A stretch of 64,000 nt of DNA, from contig DASXVE010000024.1 of NCBI GenBank assembly GCA_036504445.1, positions 62,001-126,000 of the forward strand. Reading direction: 5' to 3'. This DNA is from Candidatus Aquicultor sp. GTDB lineage: Bacteria > Actinomycetota > Aquicultoria > Aquicultorales > Aquicultoraceae. A model generated the notes under the pieces. The model was not told where the DNA came from, ran no database searches, and saw only the letters and a list, made by a program, of their open reading frames with translations. A program made the translations under genes and the position numbers. Positions 9,255 to 55,589 of the stretch are shown piece after piece. Within the stretch, counting starts at the first letter, position 1. Every line of letters begins with the position of its first letter.

Positions 9255-9803
9255 CTATATTACCGGACTGTTAAACGTATTTTTAACCGAACCGATCAAC
9301 TCAAGGTGGGTCTTCTCTACCTCAACAAGTGCGGCAAAGACTTCTTTTACCCGGGGCTCAACGGCAACCTCGGCGGCGCGTTCGTAGAACCCAATGGCCC
9401 GAGTTTCCCTATCGTGTGCTTCATTTACGTTTGCCGGATCGATCGCCTGGCAACGTCCCCGCGTATCCTCTTCTTCAGTCGGCTTCACCAAATCGAGGAT
9501 CTTGCGGATAACCGAGGCATGCTCCGCTTCGACTTTCGCCAGCGCTCTAAACATCTCGCTCAACTCGACACCCATGGATATCTCAAACGCGCAGCGATAG
9601 AACAGAGCGTTGTTCGTCTCGAGCATCAACGCATGCTCGAGATTCGCACGCGAAACCTCGGATATCGTAAAGCGGGCATCGCTGTCGCCCCAGTCTTTGG
9701 CAAAGATTATATAATTCTCCGGCGCGCCACAAAAAGGACAGTGGCTTGGTTTAGTAGCGCCTACGTATGGATCGCCGCAAATACGACATCTGTATACGTG
9801 CAT
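9255..9803 (-). CDS. Rubrerythrin-like protein with N-terminal rubredoxin-type knuckles
   Basis: 182 residues. The N-terminus has two metal knuckles, CRICG (6-10) and CPFCG (22-26), the rubredoxin arrangement. A ferritin-like four-helix domain follows (about 48-180) with repeated carboxylate/His motifs (NLEHALMLE, EAEHA, RETRAIGFYERAAE, VEKTHLELI). Rubredoxin in front of the diiron domain is the order of the 'reverse rubrerythrin' class. Family role: peroxide or oxygen scavenging in anaerobes. Single-gene unit with its own terminator. Confidence 0.85.
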   Translation of the reverse strand: MHVYRCRICGDPYVGATKPSHCPFCGAPENYIIFAKDWGDSDARFTISEVSRANLEHALMLETNNALFYRCAFEISMGVELSEMFRALAKVEAEHASVIRKILDLVKPTEEEDTRGRCQAIDPANVNEAHDRETRAIGFYERAAEVAVEPRVKEVFAALVEVEKTHLELIGSVKNTFNSPVI

Positions 9804-9958: not shown

Positions 9959-9974
9959 GTAACACCCGTGTTAC
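9959..9974. promoter_or_regulatory. Palindrome upstream of the BlaI/M56/peptide operon
   Basis: GTAACAC-CC-GTGTTAC, 7-bp perfect arms, 150 bp upstream of the repressor start and 80 bp upstream of its predicted promoter. Possible operator for the BlaI-type protein or for an unrelated regulator; the distance weakens the first idea. Confidence 0.35.
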
Positions 9975-10053: not shown

Positions 10054-10082
10054 TTGACTATTTGCTGGTAAATCAATACACT
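10054..10082 (+). promoter_or_regulatory. Predicted promoter of the peptide-system operon
   Basis: TTGACT at 10054-10059, 17-bp spacer, TACACT at 10077-10082. Places the transcription start near 10089, 27 bases before the GTG start at 10116. Confidence 0.6.
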
Positions 10083-10115
10083 TTAACCATTATTATGTTT
10101 GGAGAGGAGAACAAC

Positions 10116-10520
10116 GTGGAGAGAGAACCAAAGACAAGAAAGCGTTCCAAGAAGCTCGGCATTAACGGCCTGAGCACCCTTGAAGCAGATGTGATGAACA
10201 TCGTCTGGGAGCACAAAAAGATTACCGTGCGCGAAGTACACGAAACCATGCTTGAGGAGGGTTACATTCCATATACAACCGTCATGGCTGCCATGAACAA
10301 TATGGCCCAGAAAGGTTTGCTCAAGCAAAACCGTGACGGCAAGGCGTATGTCTACTCGGCCGCAGTCACCAGAGATGCAATGGCTAAGAACATCGTCGAT
10401 ACGGTCGTCAGTAGAATCCTCGGCGGTACTTCCACCCCGCTTATCTCGCATCTGTTAAAACTCAAGAAAGAGGATGATGTTGAGAAGCTCTTAGAGCTTA
10501 AGAAACAGCTAAGCGAATAG
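10116..10520 (+). CDS. BlaI/MecI/CopY-family repressor (copy 1)
   Basis: 134 residues from GTG 10116, chosen because GGAGAGGAGA (10101-10110) sits 5 bases upstream; the frame stays open to 10062 but has no ribosome site there. N-terminal winged helix with ALEADVMNIVW-like core (LSTLEADVMNIVWEHKK), TVREVHETM and the recognition helix YTTVMAAMNNMAQKGLL. The C-terminal part is the short dimerisation domain. Family role: dimeric repressor relieved by proteolysis through an M56 membrane sensor, which is the next gene 20 bp downstream. A close paralogue lies at 13409. Confidence 0.9.
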   Translation: MEREPKTRKRSKKLGINGLSTLEADVMNIVWEHKKITVREVHETMLEEGYIPYTTVMAAMNNMAQKGLLKQNRDGKAYVYSAAVTRDAMAKNIVDTVVSRILGGTSTPLISHLLKLKKEDDVEKLLELKKQLSE

Positions 10521-10540
10521 AACGAGCAAAGGAGCGCGCC

Positions 10541-11590
10541 GTGTCACACTTCCAGTCGTTGTTGTTTAATCAAGGTATCCAATCGATCCTCGATGCGGGC
10601 GCTATGCTCCTTCTCGTATTTTTTCTCCTTACAATCTTTCGGGTAAAAAACCCGGCGACGCGATTCTTTTTTCTCTTTGTGCCCCTGTTGAAGCCGTTCA
10701 TCGTCATGTTAGATCCGTTCACGATGTCGACCACACACCTGAACCACGGTTTCTATCAGCGAAGCATTAGGTTTCCTGACCCCTTAAATCTTATCGTATT
10801 ACCGGTAAAAGAAACTAAAGCGTTAGCTTATGACACGTCATTGTTTGCATTATTGACCGGTATTGCTTTGCTTATCGTGTTGCTGTTCTTGGTCGTTCGA
10901 TGGATGCAGTTGTTCTTGTTCTTCGACAAGTTCAAACAGAGTCCGGAGCTTAGCAAAACTAAGTATCCGCGCGTGTATGAGATGCTTGGTGAACTTGCAA
11001 ATACAATAGGTGTAGCGCAGCCCAAGCTGGTTGTTGTTGATATGTGCGAGTTTGCCCCCTTTAGCGTGGGGCATAAACGCCCGACGATTGTGTTATCACA
11101 AGAAATGCTTAATACATTCCCCGATGAGCAACTGAAAATTATGCTTGCCCACGAACTCGGCCACGTTAAGAGAAACGATAACTTAACGGGTTGGATAGGG
11201 CTTATCCTACGCGATTGCTTATACTTTAATCCGATTGCCCACTTCGTCTACAAGCTGCTTGAGCGTGAGAAGGAAAAGGCGTGCGATGCTATCGCTCTTG
11301 CTGCGACCGGCTCCACACCTCAGGCGGTTGCCAATACGCTTATTGATGTCGGCTTGTTCTATCAAAAAGCCGGTATGGCTACAACTTCGCTTAACCCTGC
11401 TTTAACACGCGGTTTCCTGTATAAGAAATCATTACTTGAGCAAAGAGTAAAATATATTACCGGTCGCGTAGTTGCAAAACAATCAAAACTCCTTGCAAAA
11501 ATACTTAAGGGATTCGCGTTCTTCTTGCTTGTGTACCTCCAGCTCACAATAGGGTTTTTTGCTTTCAATTGGTTTGTAGTGATTCGTTAG
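10541..11590 (+). CDS. M56-family (BlaR1/MecR1-like) membrane zinc metalloprotease
   Basis: 349 residues from GTG 10541 with AAAGGAG upstream. Hydrophobic segments near 18-35, 42-58, 100-128, 217-232 and a terminal one at about 320-345. The protease motif HELGH is at 204-208, with downstream E in the EKEKACD segment as likely third ligand, and the typical FAPFSVGHKRPTIVLS ahead of it. No penicillin-binding sensor domain follows, unlike BlaR1. Either a regulator that inactivates the upstream BlaI-type repressor or a protease acting on the peptide encoded 90 bp downstream. Confidence 0.88.
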   Translation: MSHFQSLLFNQGIQSILDAGAMLLLVFFLLTIFRVKNPATRFFFLFVPLLKPFIVMLDPFTMSTTHLNHGFYQRSIRFPDPLNLIVLPVKETKALAYDTSLFALLTGIALLIVLLFLVVRWMQLFLFFDKFKQSPELSKTKYPRVYEMLGELANTIGVAQPKLVVVDMCEFAPFSVGHKRPTIVLSQEMLNTFPDEQLKIMLAHELGHVKRNDNLTGWIGLILRDCLYFNPIAHFVYKLLEREKEKACDAIALAATGSTPQAVANTLIDVGLFYQKAGMATTSLNPALTRGFLYKKSLLEQRVKYITGRVVAKQSKLLAKILKGFAFFLLVYLQLTIGFFAFNWFVVIR

Positions 11591-11680
11591 CAACACCATT
11601 GCAACACGCTCAGCAATACTATTTGCAGTTAAACGATTTAATACAGTTCGTGCTCGGCCATACGTGAGGGGAGGTGGCTT

Positions 11681-11779
11681 ATGAAATCGCTTAACGACGA
11701 TACCGTCCTCTGGGATTCAATGGAGATAGTCGCAAATGACGATCCCGGACCGCTTTGCTGTTTCTATCTGTGTTTGTAA
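11681..11779 (+). CDS. Candidate RiPP precursor peptide, 32 aa, Cys-rich C-terminus
   Basis: Small gene with a strong ribosome site (GAGGGGAGGTGG at 11666-11677) 3 bases before ATG 11681. The peptide has an acidic leader-like half (NDDTVLWDSMEIVANDD) and a short core with Pro22, Gly23, Pro24 and three Cys: C26, C27 and C31, ending in Leu32. It lies 52 bp before a radical SAM/SPASM gene, the classic place for a sactipeptide or ranthipeptide precursor. Nothing in the sequence proves translation or modification; no match to a named precursor family was recognised. Confidence 0.7.
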   Translation: MKSLNDDTVLWDSMEIVANDDPGPLCCFYLCL

Positions 11780-11831
11780 TACGAGAATTACTTCTGGTGG
11801 TAGATAAGAACGAGCAGCAGATGAGGTAAGT

Positions 11832-13199
11832 ATGAAAACAAGCAACCGAATTCTGTATTACAAAATCAACGGCGGTTCGTTTCTCCTTATCAATTCCATT
11901 ACGGGCGCAATCGACATCGTCAATTCAGATGTATACGACTATTTAACAAAATATGGCACGAGCGATACTCACTATGTCGATGTGCAAATCGTCGCAAAGT
12001 TACAACAACGCGGGTATTTAGTTGACGGCGACCATGTTGAGCAGGCCCTGTTCGAACGTATTGCTAACCTCTATGAACAACGAGGGAGGCAGCTTTCGTT
12101 TGTGATTTGTCCTACGTACAGCTGCAATTTACGGTGTACGTATTGCTTTGAAGGCGAGCTTCCCTCCACCAACCGGCTTTTTATGAGTGATAAAGATTTG
12201 GCGTGCGCTTTTGCCGCGATCGATGAACTACGTGAGCGCTACGCAAATCACGAACATTTCGTCCAGCTCTTTGGCGGGGAACCTTTACTTCCAAAAACCA
12301 GCAATATTGTTCGCGATGTCCTCGAAGGGGCACGGTACCGGTCCCTAGAAGTATCAATTACGACCAACGGAACGCATATGGACCAGTTTATCGATCTACT
12401 ACGCGAGTATGCGGATATACTACGTGCGGTACAAGTCACACTGGATGGGCCGAAAAGCATGCACGATGTGCGGCGAAAAAACGCCAACGATGTCGGGTCA
12501 TTTGACGCCGTGTGCTCGGCGATCGAACTACTGCTGAGCGCGGGTATTAAAGTGGTAGCCCGTGTAAATATCGATTTTCAAAACATAGATGTTCTACCTG
12601 AGCTTTTCGACTTTATGGTGGAACGTAAATGGCCTGAGAATGATCTCTTTACGTGCAACCTCTCTCCCGTCCAGGACCATGCGTGCACCGGCGCGTACCC
12701 ACACACAATGCCCGAAGACAAGCTTGTTGAACAGATCTTTTCTATAGTTAAAGGCCAACAAGGCCTTGAAGAAACATACAAGCTCAATATGTTCAGAGCA
12801 TTGAGACATATCAGAGCAGTGATCGAGGAGGGCCGTCCCAAATTACCGTTGCCGTATTACTGCGAAGCTAACAATCTCGAAAACATGGTATTCGGACCCG
12901 ATGGCTATATATACGCCTGCACTGAATGTATAGGTCGAGAGGCCTTTGCGATCGGAAAATTTATACCTGTATTGGAAATGAACGCCAAAACATCCGCCAT
13001 GTGGGGCAACAGAACGATCTTAACCATAGATGAGTGCAGGGCATGTGATATTGCCCTTCTCTGCGGTGGTGGATGTGCTTATTCGGCGCTTATGGTAAAC
13101 GGTGATATCAACAAACCCGTGTGTAACCGAATACGAGAAACAATCTTCGCTTACCTTGACTACGTGCGCGATGATCTTGTCAAACTAGCGAAGTCTTAA
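11832..13199 (+). CDS. Radical SAM/SPASM peptide maturase
   Basis: 455 residues; ATG 11832 preceded by GATGAGG. The N-terminus (about 1-85) resembles a RiPP recognition element/PqqD-like fold (RILYYKINGG...LLINSITGAIDIV, then QRGYLVD). The radical SAM core has C98-x3-C102-x2-C105 (SCNLRCTYCFE) and GGEPLL at about 149. The C-terminal SPASM region carries many Cys: YYCEA, YACTECIG, CRACDIALLCGGGC and VCNR, enough for two auxiliary Fe-S clusters. Expected to form thioether or C-C crosslinks in the upstream peptide. Ends 18 bp before a strong terminator. Confidence 0.92.
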   Translation: MKTSNRILYYKINGGSFLLINSITGAIDIVNSDVYDYLTKYGTSDTHYVDVQIVAKLQQRGYLVDGDHVEQALFERIANLYEQRGRQLSFVICPTYSCNLRCTYCFEGELPSTNRLFMSDKDLACAFAAIDELRERYANHEHFVQLFGGEPLLPKTSNIVRDVLEGARYRSLEVSITTNGTHMDQFIDLLREYADILRAVQVTLDGPKSMHDVRRKNANDVGSFDAVCSAIELLLSAGIKVVARVNIDFQNIDVLPELFDFMVERKWPENDLFTCNLSPVQDHACTGAYPHTMPEDKLVEQIFSIVKGQQGLEETYKLNMFRALRHIRAVIEEGRPKLPLPYYCEANNLENMVFGPDGYIYACTECIGREAFAIGKFIPVLEMNAKTSAMWGNRTILTIDECRACDIALLCGGGCAYSALMVNGDINKPVCNRIRETIFAYLDYVRDDLVKLAKS

Positions 13200-13216
13200 G
13201 GCTTCCGGCATGGCAT

Positions 13217-13249
13217 CGGGTGAGGGGGTTATTTTAACCCCCTCACCCG
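13217..13249 (+). terminator. Terminator of the peptide-system operon
   Basis: 15-bp perfect stem (13217-13231 with 13235-13249), 3-base loop, followed by TAAGTTTTACTT. Separates the maturase gene from the second repressor gene. Confidence 0.8.
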
Positions 13250-13259
13250 TAAGTTTTAC

Positions 13260-13287
13260 TTGCGCTTGTACTTTACAGTACTATAAT
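13260..13287 (+). promoter_or_regulatory. Promoter with embedded dyad before the second BlaI-type gene
   Basis: TTGCGC (13260-13265), 16-bp spacer, TATAAT (13282-13287). Two overlapping dyads lie in the spacer: TGTA-CTT-TACA (13267-13277) and GTACT-TTAC-AGTAC (13268-13281). BlaI/CopY-type repressors use TACA/TGTA half-sites, so this is a likely operator. Confidence 0.55.
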
Positions 13288-13408
13288 AAAGAAATCACCA
13301 CTTTTCTGTATTAATCTCTAGTAGAGCTAGGGCTCTCACCAACTAGCACCTACGGAATATCATGCAAAGACCATAAAAACACTGGGTTACTAAAAGGGGA
13401 GTTCCGCA

Positions 13409-13801
13409 GTGAAAAAAACAAAGAAAGCAAAACGACCGGAGATCAATGGGCTCAGCTTGGTTGAAGCCGACGTCATGCAAATTGTATGGCGCGAGAAAAA
13501 CGTTACTGTGCGCGAAGTACATGAGGAATTGCTGCAACGAGGGTACGTTCCGTACACAACAATCATGGCGGCCATGAATACGCTTGCCCAAAAAGGCTTG
13601 CTCGTCCAAAGCAGGAAGTATAAGGCATATTCATATACGCCTGCCCTGAGCCAAACCGCTGTTGCCAATGAGATTATCGACAACGTAGTATCACGAGTGC
13701 TTCAAGGCTCTCCAACTTCCATACTTTGCTATTTACTTAAGATACGCAACAAAGACGAAGTCGAAGAGCTTATGAAGCTACGAGAAAAACTCTACTCGTA
13801 A
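13409..13801 (+). CDS. BlaI/MecI/CopY-family repressor (copy 2)
   Basis: 130 residues from GTG 13409, with AAAAGGGGAG upstream. Near-paralogue of the 10116 product: shared INGLS.EADVM.IVW, TVREVHEE and YTT.MAAMN.LAQKGLL. Its C-terminus has a Cys (ILCYLL) absent from copy 1. Own promoter with a dyad, behind the terminator of the peptide operon. Two paralogous repressors bracketing one peptide system suggests duplicated or heterodimeric control. Confidence 0.9.
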   Translation: MKKTKKAKRPEINGLSLVEADVMQIVWREKNVTVREVHEELLQRGYVPYTTIMAAMNTLAQKGLLVQSRKYKAYSYTPALSQTAVANEIIDNVVSRVLQGSPTSILCYLLKIRNKDEVEELMKLREKLYS

Positions 13802-13820: not shown

Positions 13821-14891
13821 TTAGGGCTTTAGGCCTCGCGCTGTGTTGACGTCGAGCTTCTGAATGGTCTTGATTAGCAACTCAACAGTATGTTCTAAAT
13901 CATTGTAATCGATAACGCTAACGTGACTGTGTATATACCTGGTCGGGACACCTATTACGAGCGTGGGGACACCTGTGCCGTGCAGATGTATCCGGCCGCC
14001 GTCCGTTCCCCCTCGCGTCCCGGCCTGGAACTGGTATGGAATATTATTTTCCTCAGCGACTTCAACCACTAAATCGCGCAGTTTTAAATTCGGAATTAGA
14101 CTGCCGTCAAGTACAACAATAGCCGGCCCTTTACCGAGCTTCGCCTGGGCCTCGTTTTCATTCACACCGGGAACGTCTCCGGCAATCGATACCTCGGTAA
14201 TAAACGCGACATCCGGGTTAACCAGATCTGCGGCGGTTTTAGCACCGCGCAAGCCGACTTCTTCTTGAACCGTACCGGCTCCAAAAACGGTATTGGGGTG
14301 ATCTATACCGTTTAAGCGCTTAATAATCTCGATGAAGACCGCACAACCGACCCTATCATCCATTGCTTTACCCATGAGCATATTGGCTTTTTTCATCCTA
14401 GTAAACGGGCTCACCGGGACTATGGGGTCGCCGGGCTTTATTCCCATCTCTTTGACGTCTTCATCGCTTGATGCACCGATATCGATGAACATATCTTTCA
14501 TCTCGACGACCTTTTCCCGCTCTTTAAGCGTGAGCAAATGTGGGGGCTTAGACCCAATGACACCCGGTGCGTCCCCTTTGCTGCCTTTGACAACCACACG
14601 CTGTGAGAGCATGACCTGGCCCCACCAGCCGCCGAGCGGCTGGAACTTGATATAGCCATCTTTCGTGATAAGCGAGACGAGCAAGCCAACCTCGTCCATA
14701 TGGCCGGCGAGCATTATCTTCGGGTTATCGCTTGCTCCCTGCTTGCGCGCAATGATGCTGCCGAGGTTATCTACTCCTATGTGTGCCACCGGCTCAAGCT
14801 CGCGTCTAATTACCTCTCGCACGTCGCCCTCAAAACCCGATGGGCCGGCCGCATTTACCAACTCTTCAAGAACTTGAACAGAATCCGTCAT
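13821..14891 (-). CDS. M42-family metallo-aminopeptidase
   Basis: 356 residues, normal for M42 (tetrahedral TET-type aminopeptidases, often annotated FrvX, YsdC or endoglucanase). Visible metal and catalytic residues: AGHMDEVG (His68, Asp70), KAMDDRVGC, QEEVGLRGA with the catalytic Glu pair, FITEVSIAGD and the C-terminal RYIHSH. Cytosolic two-metal enzyme that trims peptides. Convergent with the second repressor gene; nothing suggests it belongs to the peptide system. Confidence 0.92.
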   Translation of the reverse strand: MTDSVQVLEELVNAAGPSGFEGDVREVIRRELEPVAHIGVDNLGSIIARKQGASDNPKIMLAGHMDEVGLLVSLITKDGYIKFQPLGGWWGQVMLSQRVVVKGSKGDAPGVIGSKPPHLLTLKEREKVVEMKDMFIDIGASSDEDVKEMGIKPGDPIVPVSPFTRMKKANMLMGKAMDDRVGCAVFIEIIKRLNGIDHPNTVFGAGTVQEEVGLRGAKTAADLVNPDVAFITEVSIAGDVPGVNENEAQAKLGKGPAIVVLDGSLIPNLKLRDLVVEVAEENNIPYQFQAGTRGGTDGGRIHLHGTGVPTLVIGVPTRYIHSHVSVIDYNDLEHTVELLIKTIQKLDVNTARGLKP

Positions 14892-54441: not shown

Positions 54442-55589
54442 CTATGCAACCGCTTCGGTGACCGGTTGCCGCTCCGCATACACCTTCATTGAAGCGATAG
54501 AGTCGCTTACCAAAAGCTCCGCCAGCCGCACCATATACTCCTGTTTGTGTGCCGGTAGCCGGTGCAAATTCTTCAGCTTATTCCGATAGAATCGCATAAA
54601 CGCGTTACTCAATAACCCGGATAATTGTCGCGAGTCATTGCGTCGGGCTTGATTATTGGGTTAATGAGGTTGATATCTATCAAGAATGCCCCGGTCGCGC
54701 ACAATGTCATTGGCTCTGGTTTCAACCAAAAGCTCGATATTAAGATCTTCTTTAACAAGGCGTTTAAGAATGTATGCCCAGCGGTCTCGATCGAGTGTAG
54801 GATACTCATCGGCCACCTCGACAGTATCCACCCCGAAGCGCTCGCGGAGCATCCTCAGTTCGGCGATTACCGATTCGGCGTCTCGTGCACGCCACGATTG
54901 TCTCCACGGCTTTTGCTGGGAGCAAAACGTGCAGGTATTCGTACACACCCGCGCCTAGCTCACAATTGCGAGCCTGGAATCTGGTTTTGCTCGGTAGTAG
55001 TAGAGCGGCCAGTCTATCATATCCCATGCAACCGGCAACATATCGAGGTCTTCAATAAGAGACCGGTCCGGCGTGCTTGCGACCGCCCCCGAAGCATCGA
55101 CGAACGATATGCCATGAACCTTTTGAGGCATATCACCAGCGTTTATACAGGTAAGAAGCTCGGGAAATGAATGCTCACCCTCACCGCGAACAACGTAACC
55201 GACTACCCCATCGCGGAGAACTTCGCGAGCCATAAACGTCGGATGGACCCGCCGATAACCGTTACAACACCGGGCATAACTTGCTTCGATAACCTCAGCA
55301 CCTCTATTGCCGTATTAACTGTGGCGGTATAGGCCGTTGTCGCAACAACATCCGGCTGCGCTTCAGCTATGTGCTCTTTTACCTGATCAATCGTGTCAAA
55401 GCGCGACATGGCATCATATATCTCAACGTCAAACCCCGCGTTCTTAAGTGATCCGGCCAGGGAGGCCAGACCAAGCGGCATCCAGACGCCTACCGACTCA
55501 ACCATGCCGCAGTGGTATGGCGGCGTAATGAGAAGAACCTTGCGTAGTTTCGTAGGCAACCCTCCCTTGAAGTATAACGTGCCTTCCAA
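54442..55589 (-). pseudogene. Broken B12-binding radical SAM gene
   Basis: N-terminal B12-binding domain (KVLLITPPYH, GLASLAGSLKNAGFDVEIYD, VTVIGG) runs to about 55245, where a 1-base loss shifts the frame; it resumes as HPTFMAREVLRDGVVGYVVRG. A TAG at 54957-54955 stops it just before CTNTCTFCSQQ (CxxxCxxC). After RDRGILDRY a large part of the barrel is missing, and LINPIIKPDAMTRD and LSNAFMRFYRNKLKNLHRL follow in different frames to a stop at 54442. BchE-like/class B family; now non-functional. Confidence 0.8.

Follow-up and report, generated by a model that had tools for sequence, protein, structure and literature searches.

Proteases of the M56 kind control antibiotic resistance in staphylococci, and in the BlaR1/BlaI and MecR1/MecI systems of Staphylococcus aureus a four-TM M56 protease is found together with a BlaI-type repressor. 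Membrane metalloproteases are also known beside peptides that are modified by radical SAM enzymes. EpeP, an integral-membrane M50 metalloprotease, is thought to cleave and export the epipeptide EpeX, and the 2023 review of RiPP proteases that describes it names no M56 protease (PMC10885120). Here we analysed a locus within a 64,000-nucleotide stretch of Candidatus Aquicultor DNA (the window), in which an M56 gene precedes the genes of a short cysteine-containing peptide and a radical SAM/SPASM maturase. We read it as a chromosomal RiPP cassette with the M56 protease as a functional partner, at a probability of about 0.72. RiPPs made with radical SAM enzymes are an established kind; what appears to be new is this family of precursors and its link to M56. 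An earlier note on this DNA had called the coupling to a BlaI/M56 circuit non-standard, and this part held, as no library model or paper that we found describes the peptide family or the M56 link. No account of BlaI/M56 with RiPPs was found in the literature searched, which left out most subscription journals.

Organization of the locus

Re-reading of the open reading frames in the window confirmed the positions of all five cassette genes. The features are as follows.

10054..10082, + strand: predicted promoter of the BlaI1-M56-peptide-maturase operon (TTGACT, 17 nt, TACACT; from a scan)
10116..10520, + strand: BlaI1, BlaI/MecI-type winged-helix repressor (134 aa, GTG start; PF03965, E 5e-27)
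10541..11590, + strand: M56 membrane zinc metalloprotease (4 TM, HELGH motif; PF05569, Peptidase_M56, E 2e-23)
11681..11779, + strand: precursor peptide MKSLNDDTVLWDSMEIVANDDPGPLCCFYLCL (32 aa; leader SLN..LWD, core CCFYLC)
11832..13199, + strand: radical SAM/SPASM peptide maturase with a predicted RRE-like N-terminus (455 aa; PF04055, Radical_SAM, E 1e-16)
13217..13249, + strand: strong intrinsic terminator with a 15-bp stem between maturase and BlaI2 (from a scan)
13260..13287, + strand: likely BlaI2 promoter (TTGCGC, 16 nt, TATAAT; read from the sequence)
13409..13801, + strand: BlaI2, second BlaI-type repressor and paralogue of BlaI1 (130 aa; PF03965, Penicillinase_R, E 3e-22)

The region outlined in the earlier note began at 10054, which is the -35 box (TTGACT) of the operon promoter. 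Its reading of a BlaI repressor and an M56 protease ahead of the peptide agrees with the Pfam matches, and that of a second, paralogous repressor behind a terminator was borne out by alignment. The TTGACT box is kept 5' of BlaI1 in most genomes of the family (Candidatus Aquicultor and its kin), where the second box is usually TAAACT. GC-rich hairpins stand at the terminator position in further relatives (L031, L033, L034, and L037-L039), and a TTGC(G/A)C...TATAAT-like pair was found again in several. The spacer of the likely BlaI2 promoter holds the palindrome GTACTTTACAGTAC (13268-13281), a putative operator. No conserved BlaI operator was found; inverted repeats occurred only in single genomes (GTAACACCCGTGTTAC at 9959-9974 and the palindrome in the spacer). 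A search for structured RNA gave no Rfam match.

An M42 aminopeptidase gene (window 13821-14891, - strand) converges on BlaI2. All family genomes with a contig long enough to include this position have it, at 74-78% identity, and the linkage was not seen beyond the family. On the other side, a rubrerythrin-like gene (window 9255-9803, - strand) adjoins the cassette in approximately every second family genome. Two distant loci (L076, 2187-2513; L279, 7586-7870) encode a short ferritin-like protein (PF02915) near the cassette. These neighbours could reflect chance or a redox link. Elsewhere in the window, a gene of the B12-binding/radical SAM type (54661-55589, - strand) appears to be broken into three frames of 128, 92, and 95 aa, and its radical SAM match is interrupted by an in-frame TAG; gene decay or a fault in the assembly is the probable cause.

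Repressors

Within the family, identities reach 82-87% for BlaI1, 51-60% for BlaI2, 42-48% for M56, and 48-57% for the maturase; given its strong conservation, BlaI1 may have further targets. The two repressors have nearly the same recognition helix in the alignment, and BlaI2 was found in relatives wherever the contig reaches. Two flanking repressors were seen in the Aquicultor family and at one Chloroflexi locus (L069, a single MAG), where they are near-identical copies. The two-BlaI layout is thus lineage-specific, and the two-repressor circuit described in the earlier note is not the essence of the cassette; M56 is the constant partner. At the aligned place of the MecI cleavage site (Asn-Phe, placed by eye), BlaI1 has Ser-His, and cleavage at other sites is possible. 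A copper-repressor reading of BlaI1 was rejected, since CopY is its best NCBIfam match but falls under the cut-off, and BlaI1 has no cysteines. The same genome encodes a further BlaI very like BlaI1 (L233 1406-1816, at G000:C8:8432-8761), with no M56 gene in the fetched stretch.

A family of short precursor peptides

Judged from its sequence and that of its relatives, the 32-aa peptide is a real gene. It has the Shine-Dalgarno sequence GGGAGGTGG and lies directly before the maturase, as the earlier note had it. Its profile matches the window copy at 2e-11, the sole match in that genome, and finds only cassette loci among 396 genomes, so the signal does not arise by chance. Ten other family genomes carry a short ORF of the form MKSLNxDxxLWD...CC(W/F)...C between M56 and maturase (in G002 it follows M56 where the contig stops). 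Maturases from other families, at 37-42% identity, are also accompanied by a short peptide ORF after M56, and the peptide keeps this place at loci with a divergently transcribed maturase too.

The resulting family comprises peptides of 30-54 aa with 3-5 cysteines, a leader S(L/I/V)N..LW, and a hydrophobic core CC(W/F)x(1-5)C. W11, C26, and C27 occur in every row of a 24-row alignment, and L10 and C31 are nearly invariant. The window core CCFYLC is divergent, as it has no usual Trp. Of 16 peptides compared with the NCBIfam and Pfam models, none gave a match even at E values up to 10. In Anaerocolumna, Paenibacillus, Lachnobacterium, and others, related maturases have precursors that keep the LN..LW leader with longer Cys-rich cores (L070 5697-5831, L079 726-881, L084 5769-5933, L085 5712-5879, L087 5599-5763, L088 5700-5819, and L091 5704-5829); some come from cultured strains. 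Because neighbouring maturase groups without M56 have the same motif, the leader probably predates the M56 link, as would be expected if LN..LW were the recognition sequence of the RRE.

The maturase

The maturase has the cluster motif CNLRCTYC (radical SAM CX3CX2C) and a SPASM pattern C344-X18-C363...CX2CX5CX3C...C431, and both sets of cysteines are invariant in 14 homologues. In an AF2 model (pLDDT 89.7), whose best PDB match is CteB (5why, E 6e-20), the N-terminus follows the order E7-11, E16-21, E27-31, H32-39, H51-59, and H67-83. This supports the earlier prediction of an RRE-like N-terminus, with residues 7-83 in the beta3-alpha3 layout described for the RRE (PMC8326336).

The nearest NCBIfam models are CefB, TIGR04463, and Clo7bot, which match over nearly the full length with 132-143 bits against cut-offs of 525-600. 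Assignment to a named maturase or precursor family of NCBIfam was rejected, with the maturase under every cut-off and the peptide unmatched. Ranthipeptides have a Cys thioether to a non-alpha carbon, and sactipeptides one to an alpha carbon. The thioether acceptor residues in known ranthipeptides are Asp, Glu, Thr, and Asn. The core is mostly without these, which weighs against a firm assignment of the crosslink type, and the proximity of the modelled fold to CteB, a maturase that forms thioethers, is only a lead towards a ranthipeptide-type thioether.

Among 90 maturases placed in a tree, the M56-linked ones fall into a single group of 26 rows (SH-aLRT 93). The rows of this group with no adjoining M56 gene (L077 and the G002 maturase, L035/L059) both start at contig edges. 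The Aerophobetes maturase, which is also M56-linked, branches at the base. Several rows with long branches in the maturase and M56 trees are unsure in their placement, and in the M56 tree the deep order is unsure as well.

The M56 protease as the constant partner

The M56 protein matches BlaR1 by profile (2e-15) with a match that ends at TM4 of BlaR1, which continues for another 275 residues or so. This bears out the earlier reading that the protease has no BlaR1 sensor domain: the protein ends after TM4, with no PBP-like C-terminal sensor. BlaR1 is also the best PDB fold (8exp, E 2e-6) for the AF2 model (pLDDT 78). By alignment, cassette M56s have an additional loop between TM2 and TM3, which in most of them includes a PDP motif (RFPDP in the window protein). 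Together with a hairpin at the C-terminus, a strand of this loop might make up a small outer domain, in a part of the model with low confidence.

According to counts made by hand, 35 of 36 loci (all but L064) have the M56 gene immediately 5' of the peptide gene and in the same orientation, and BlaI is not beside M56 in approximately 7 of the 34 assessable loci (L063, L064, L071, L072, L076, L090, and L279). The M56-peptide adjacency holds with a divergent maturase and with no BlaI; in G030, estimated at 87% completeness, M56, peptide, and maturase are present with no BlaI match anywhere. As M56 stays with the peptide in both situations, the core unit is M56, peptide, and maturase, with BlaI as its probable regulator.

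Genomes of the family (e.g., G000) also carry an ordinary BlaI-M56 pair without a peptide. The M56s of these pairs are shorter, have no PDP loop between TM2 and TM3, and fall in another group of the tree than cassette M56s (100/100). The M56 L046_10187, part of a second BlaI-M56 pair at L046, clusters with the ordinary ones. Two paralogues (L058 9134 and L223) fall inside the cassette M56 group yet have no peptide beside them. The paralogues L034 2765-3745 (G007) and L223 1500-2573 (G006) have the PDP loop, with no adjoining peptide or maturase.

Distribution and co-occurrence

The cassette was present in all 11 family genomes examined. Relatives of the peptide also occur in more distant Actinomycetota and in MAGs of Bacillota, Chloroflexota (Chloroflexi), Aerophobetes, and, as CCWNIC within a longer frame, Armatimonadota (Armatimonadetes). 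Nearly all genomes with the M56 cassette are MAGs. Profile searches of 396 Actinomycetota genomes, with maturase matches counted at E values up to 1e-60, found the peptide in 30 and the maturase in 30, with 28 in common (Fisher p ~3e-38, although related genomes are not independent). Both peptide-only genomes have truncated contigs: that of G034 (74% complete) stops soon after the peptide with no maturase on it, and that of G296 stops inside the maturase. The maturase-only genomes, G219 and G376, hold maturase fragments, cut by a contig end in G376 and near one in G219. The earlier note held that homologous maturases with no short peptide beside them would speak against a RiPP system; every maturase of the cassette clade with complete flanks has the peptide beside it.

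Besides BlaI, M56, and the maturase, no gene family recurs broadly across the non-Aquicultor loci, and no recurrent transporter, exporter, or immunity gene was found among them. Phage and plasmid origins were considered and rejected. Viral contigs yielded only remote radical SAM matches, and plasmids only remote maturases (best approximately 30% identity) with no real peptide match.

A possible mechanism and its alternatives

On comparative evidence, the peptide, the RRE-type maturase, and the sensorless M56 protease evolve together, usually under BlaI. In the mechanism that we propose, the maturase would use its N-terminal RRE to bind the leader S(L/I/V)N..LW, and would crosslink the hydrophobic core CC(W/F)x(1-5)C by radical chemistry, most probably through Cys thioethers. 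The active site of M56 would face the cytosol, by analogy with BlaR1, and its main partner would be the modified peptide. M56 might either cleave the leader and release the core through the membrane, or be gated by the core. BlaI, together with BlaI2 in the Aquicultor family, would repress the operon, and cleavage of BlaI by M56 would couple expression to the state of the peptide or the envelope. Release of the core by M56 could explain the missing transporter, with EpeP as the precedent (PMC10885120). The cassette is inherited by lineage among flanking genes that stay the same, and no exporter or immunity gene recurs beside it; both points favour a role in signalling or envelope homeostasis over a bacteriocin.

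We modestly prefer an M56 that acts on both peptide and repressor, then on the repressor only, and then on the peptide only. As a repressor protease alone, M56 would sense an outside signal such as cell-wall damage or an antibiotic, cleave BlaI, and induce a RiPP that it never touches. BlaR1-BlaI acts as such a signal-protease-repressor module (PMC7593790), BlaI adjoins M56 in most loci, and G000 has its other, ordinary pair; we hold this to be plausible at somewhat less than even odds, given that M56 remains with the peptide in the loci where BlaI is gone from its side, that G030 keeps the other three genes with no BlaI match, and that cassette M56s group apart from those of ordinary pairs. 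A purely peptide-directed M56, a leader peptidase or exporter with simple BlaI repressors carried along, would account for the strict adjacency and the missing transporter and has membrane metalloprotease precedents in EpeP, TglG, and MroQ. We are doubtful of it, because most loci keep BlaI beside M56 and no other cassette protein is as well conserved as BlaI1, which argues for an active regulatory tie.

The remaining explanations concern the peptide itself. A short Cys peptide with a radical SAM maturase is the layout of a sactibiotic and the core is hydrophobic, as in a bacteriocin cluster in the usual sense; this is nevertheless improbable, as no recurrent exporter or immunity gene was found, and all family members have the cassette, next to the same aminopeptidase gene, unlike sporadic bacteriocins. 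That the 32-aa ORF is a chance frame, with the maturase acting on something else, gains a little from the commonness of short ORFs and from the divergent window copy without its Trp. It is refuted by the profile match at the same place in every complete cassette, the Shine-Dalgarno sequences, and the near-perfect co-occurrence across 396 genomes.

A further, tentative reading is that the sensorless M56 has the crosslinked peptide as its natural ligand or substrate, giving a peptide-gated, BlaR1-like switch in which the cassette's own product controls repressor cleavage; we rate this as possible, though short of an even chance. If true, it would reveal, to our knowledge for the first time, a signal for M56-BlaI pairs that lack a beta-lactam sensor, and what such pairs respond to would become directly testable. 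With this analysis, a RiPP precursor family that had no annotation, with a CC(W/F)-C core and an LN..LW leader, is recognised in four or more phyla, and M56 is named as its constant partner. In these bacteria of sediment and groundwater, about which little is known, the cassette appears to make a tiny, chemically modified peptide in the constant company of the membrane protease, a pairing that suggests a peptide-linked protease switch yet to be characterised.

Comparison with known systems

The best structural and profile matches of the maturase are the CteB/SCIFF ranthipeptide maturases (PDB 5WGG and 5WHY), which share the RRE, radical SAM, and SPASM domains and a short Cys-containing precursor. 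SCIFF, however, has six Cys in about forty-five residues, against 3-5 here, with another leader and core, and the cassette maturase falls outside its maturase model (TIGR03974, 87 bits against a cut-off of 425). We know of no M56 or BlaI in a SCIFF setting. Clo7bot is likewise distinct, with 132 bits for the maturase against the TIGR04334 cut-off of 600 and no NCBIfam match for the peptides; its precursors differ in their leader (MKFIKKPARKFEEG) and lie near an ABC transporter gene. Closest in the tree are unnamed maturases of Paenibacillus and Lachnospiraceae (L079-L091). Their precursors share the leader (L/I/M)N..LW but have mostly longer Cys-rich cores, often two maturases, and no M56 or BlaI nearby.

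EpeX and EpeP likewise bring together a peptide modified by a radical SAM enzyme and a membrane metalloprotease (PMC10885120), but EpeP is an M50 rather than an M56 protease and the maturase and precursor are others, so the similarity is one of logic only. The BlaI-type repressor adjoins M56 at the window locus as it does in BlaR1/BlaI, an arrangement that is not universal in the wider cassette. Whereas BlaR1/BlaI and MecR1/MecI have a beta-lactam sensor domain, none is found here, and in place of a beta-lactamase the cassette operon encodes a peptide and its maturase.
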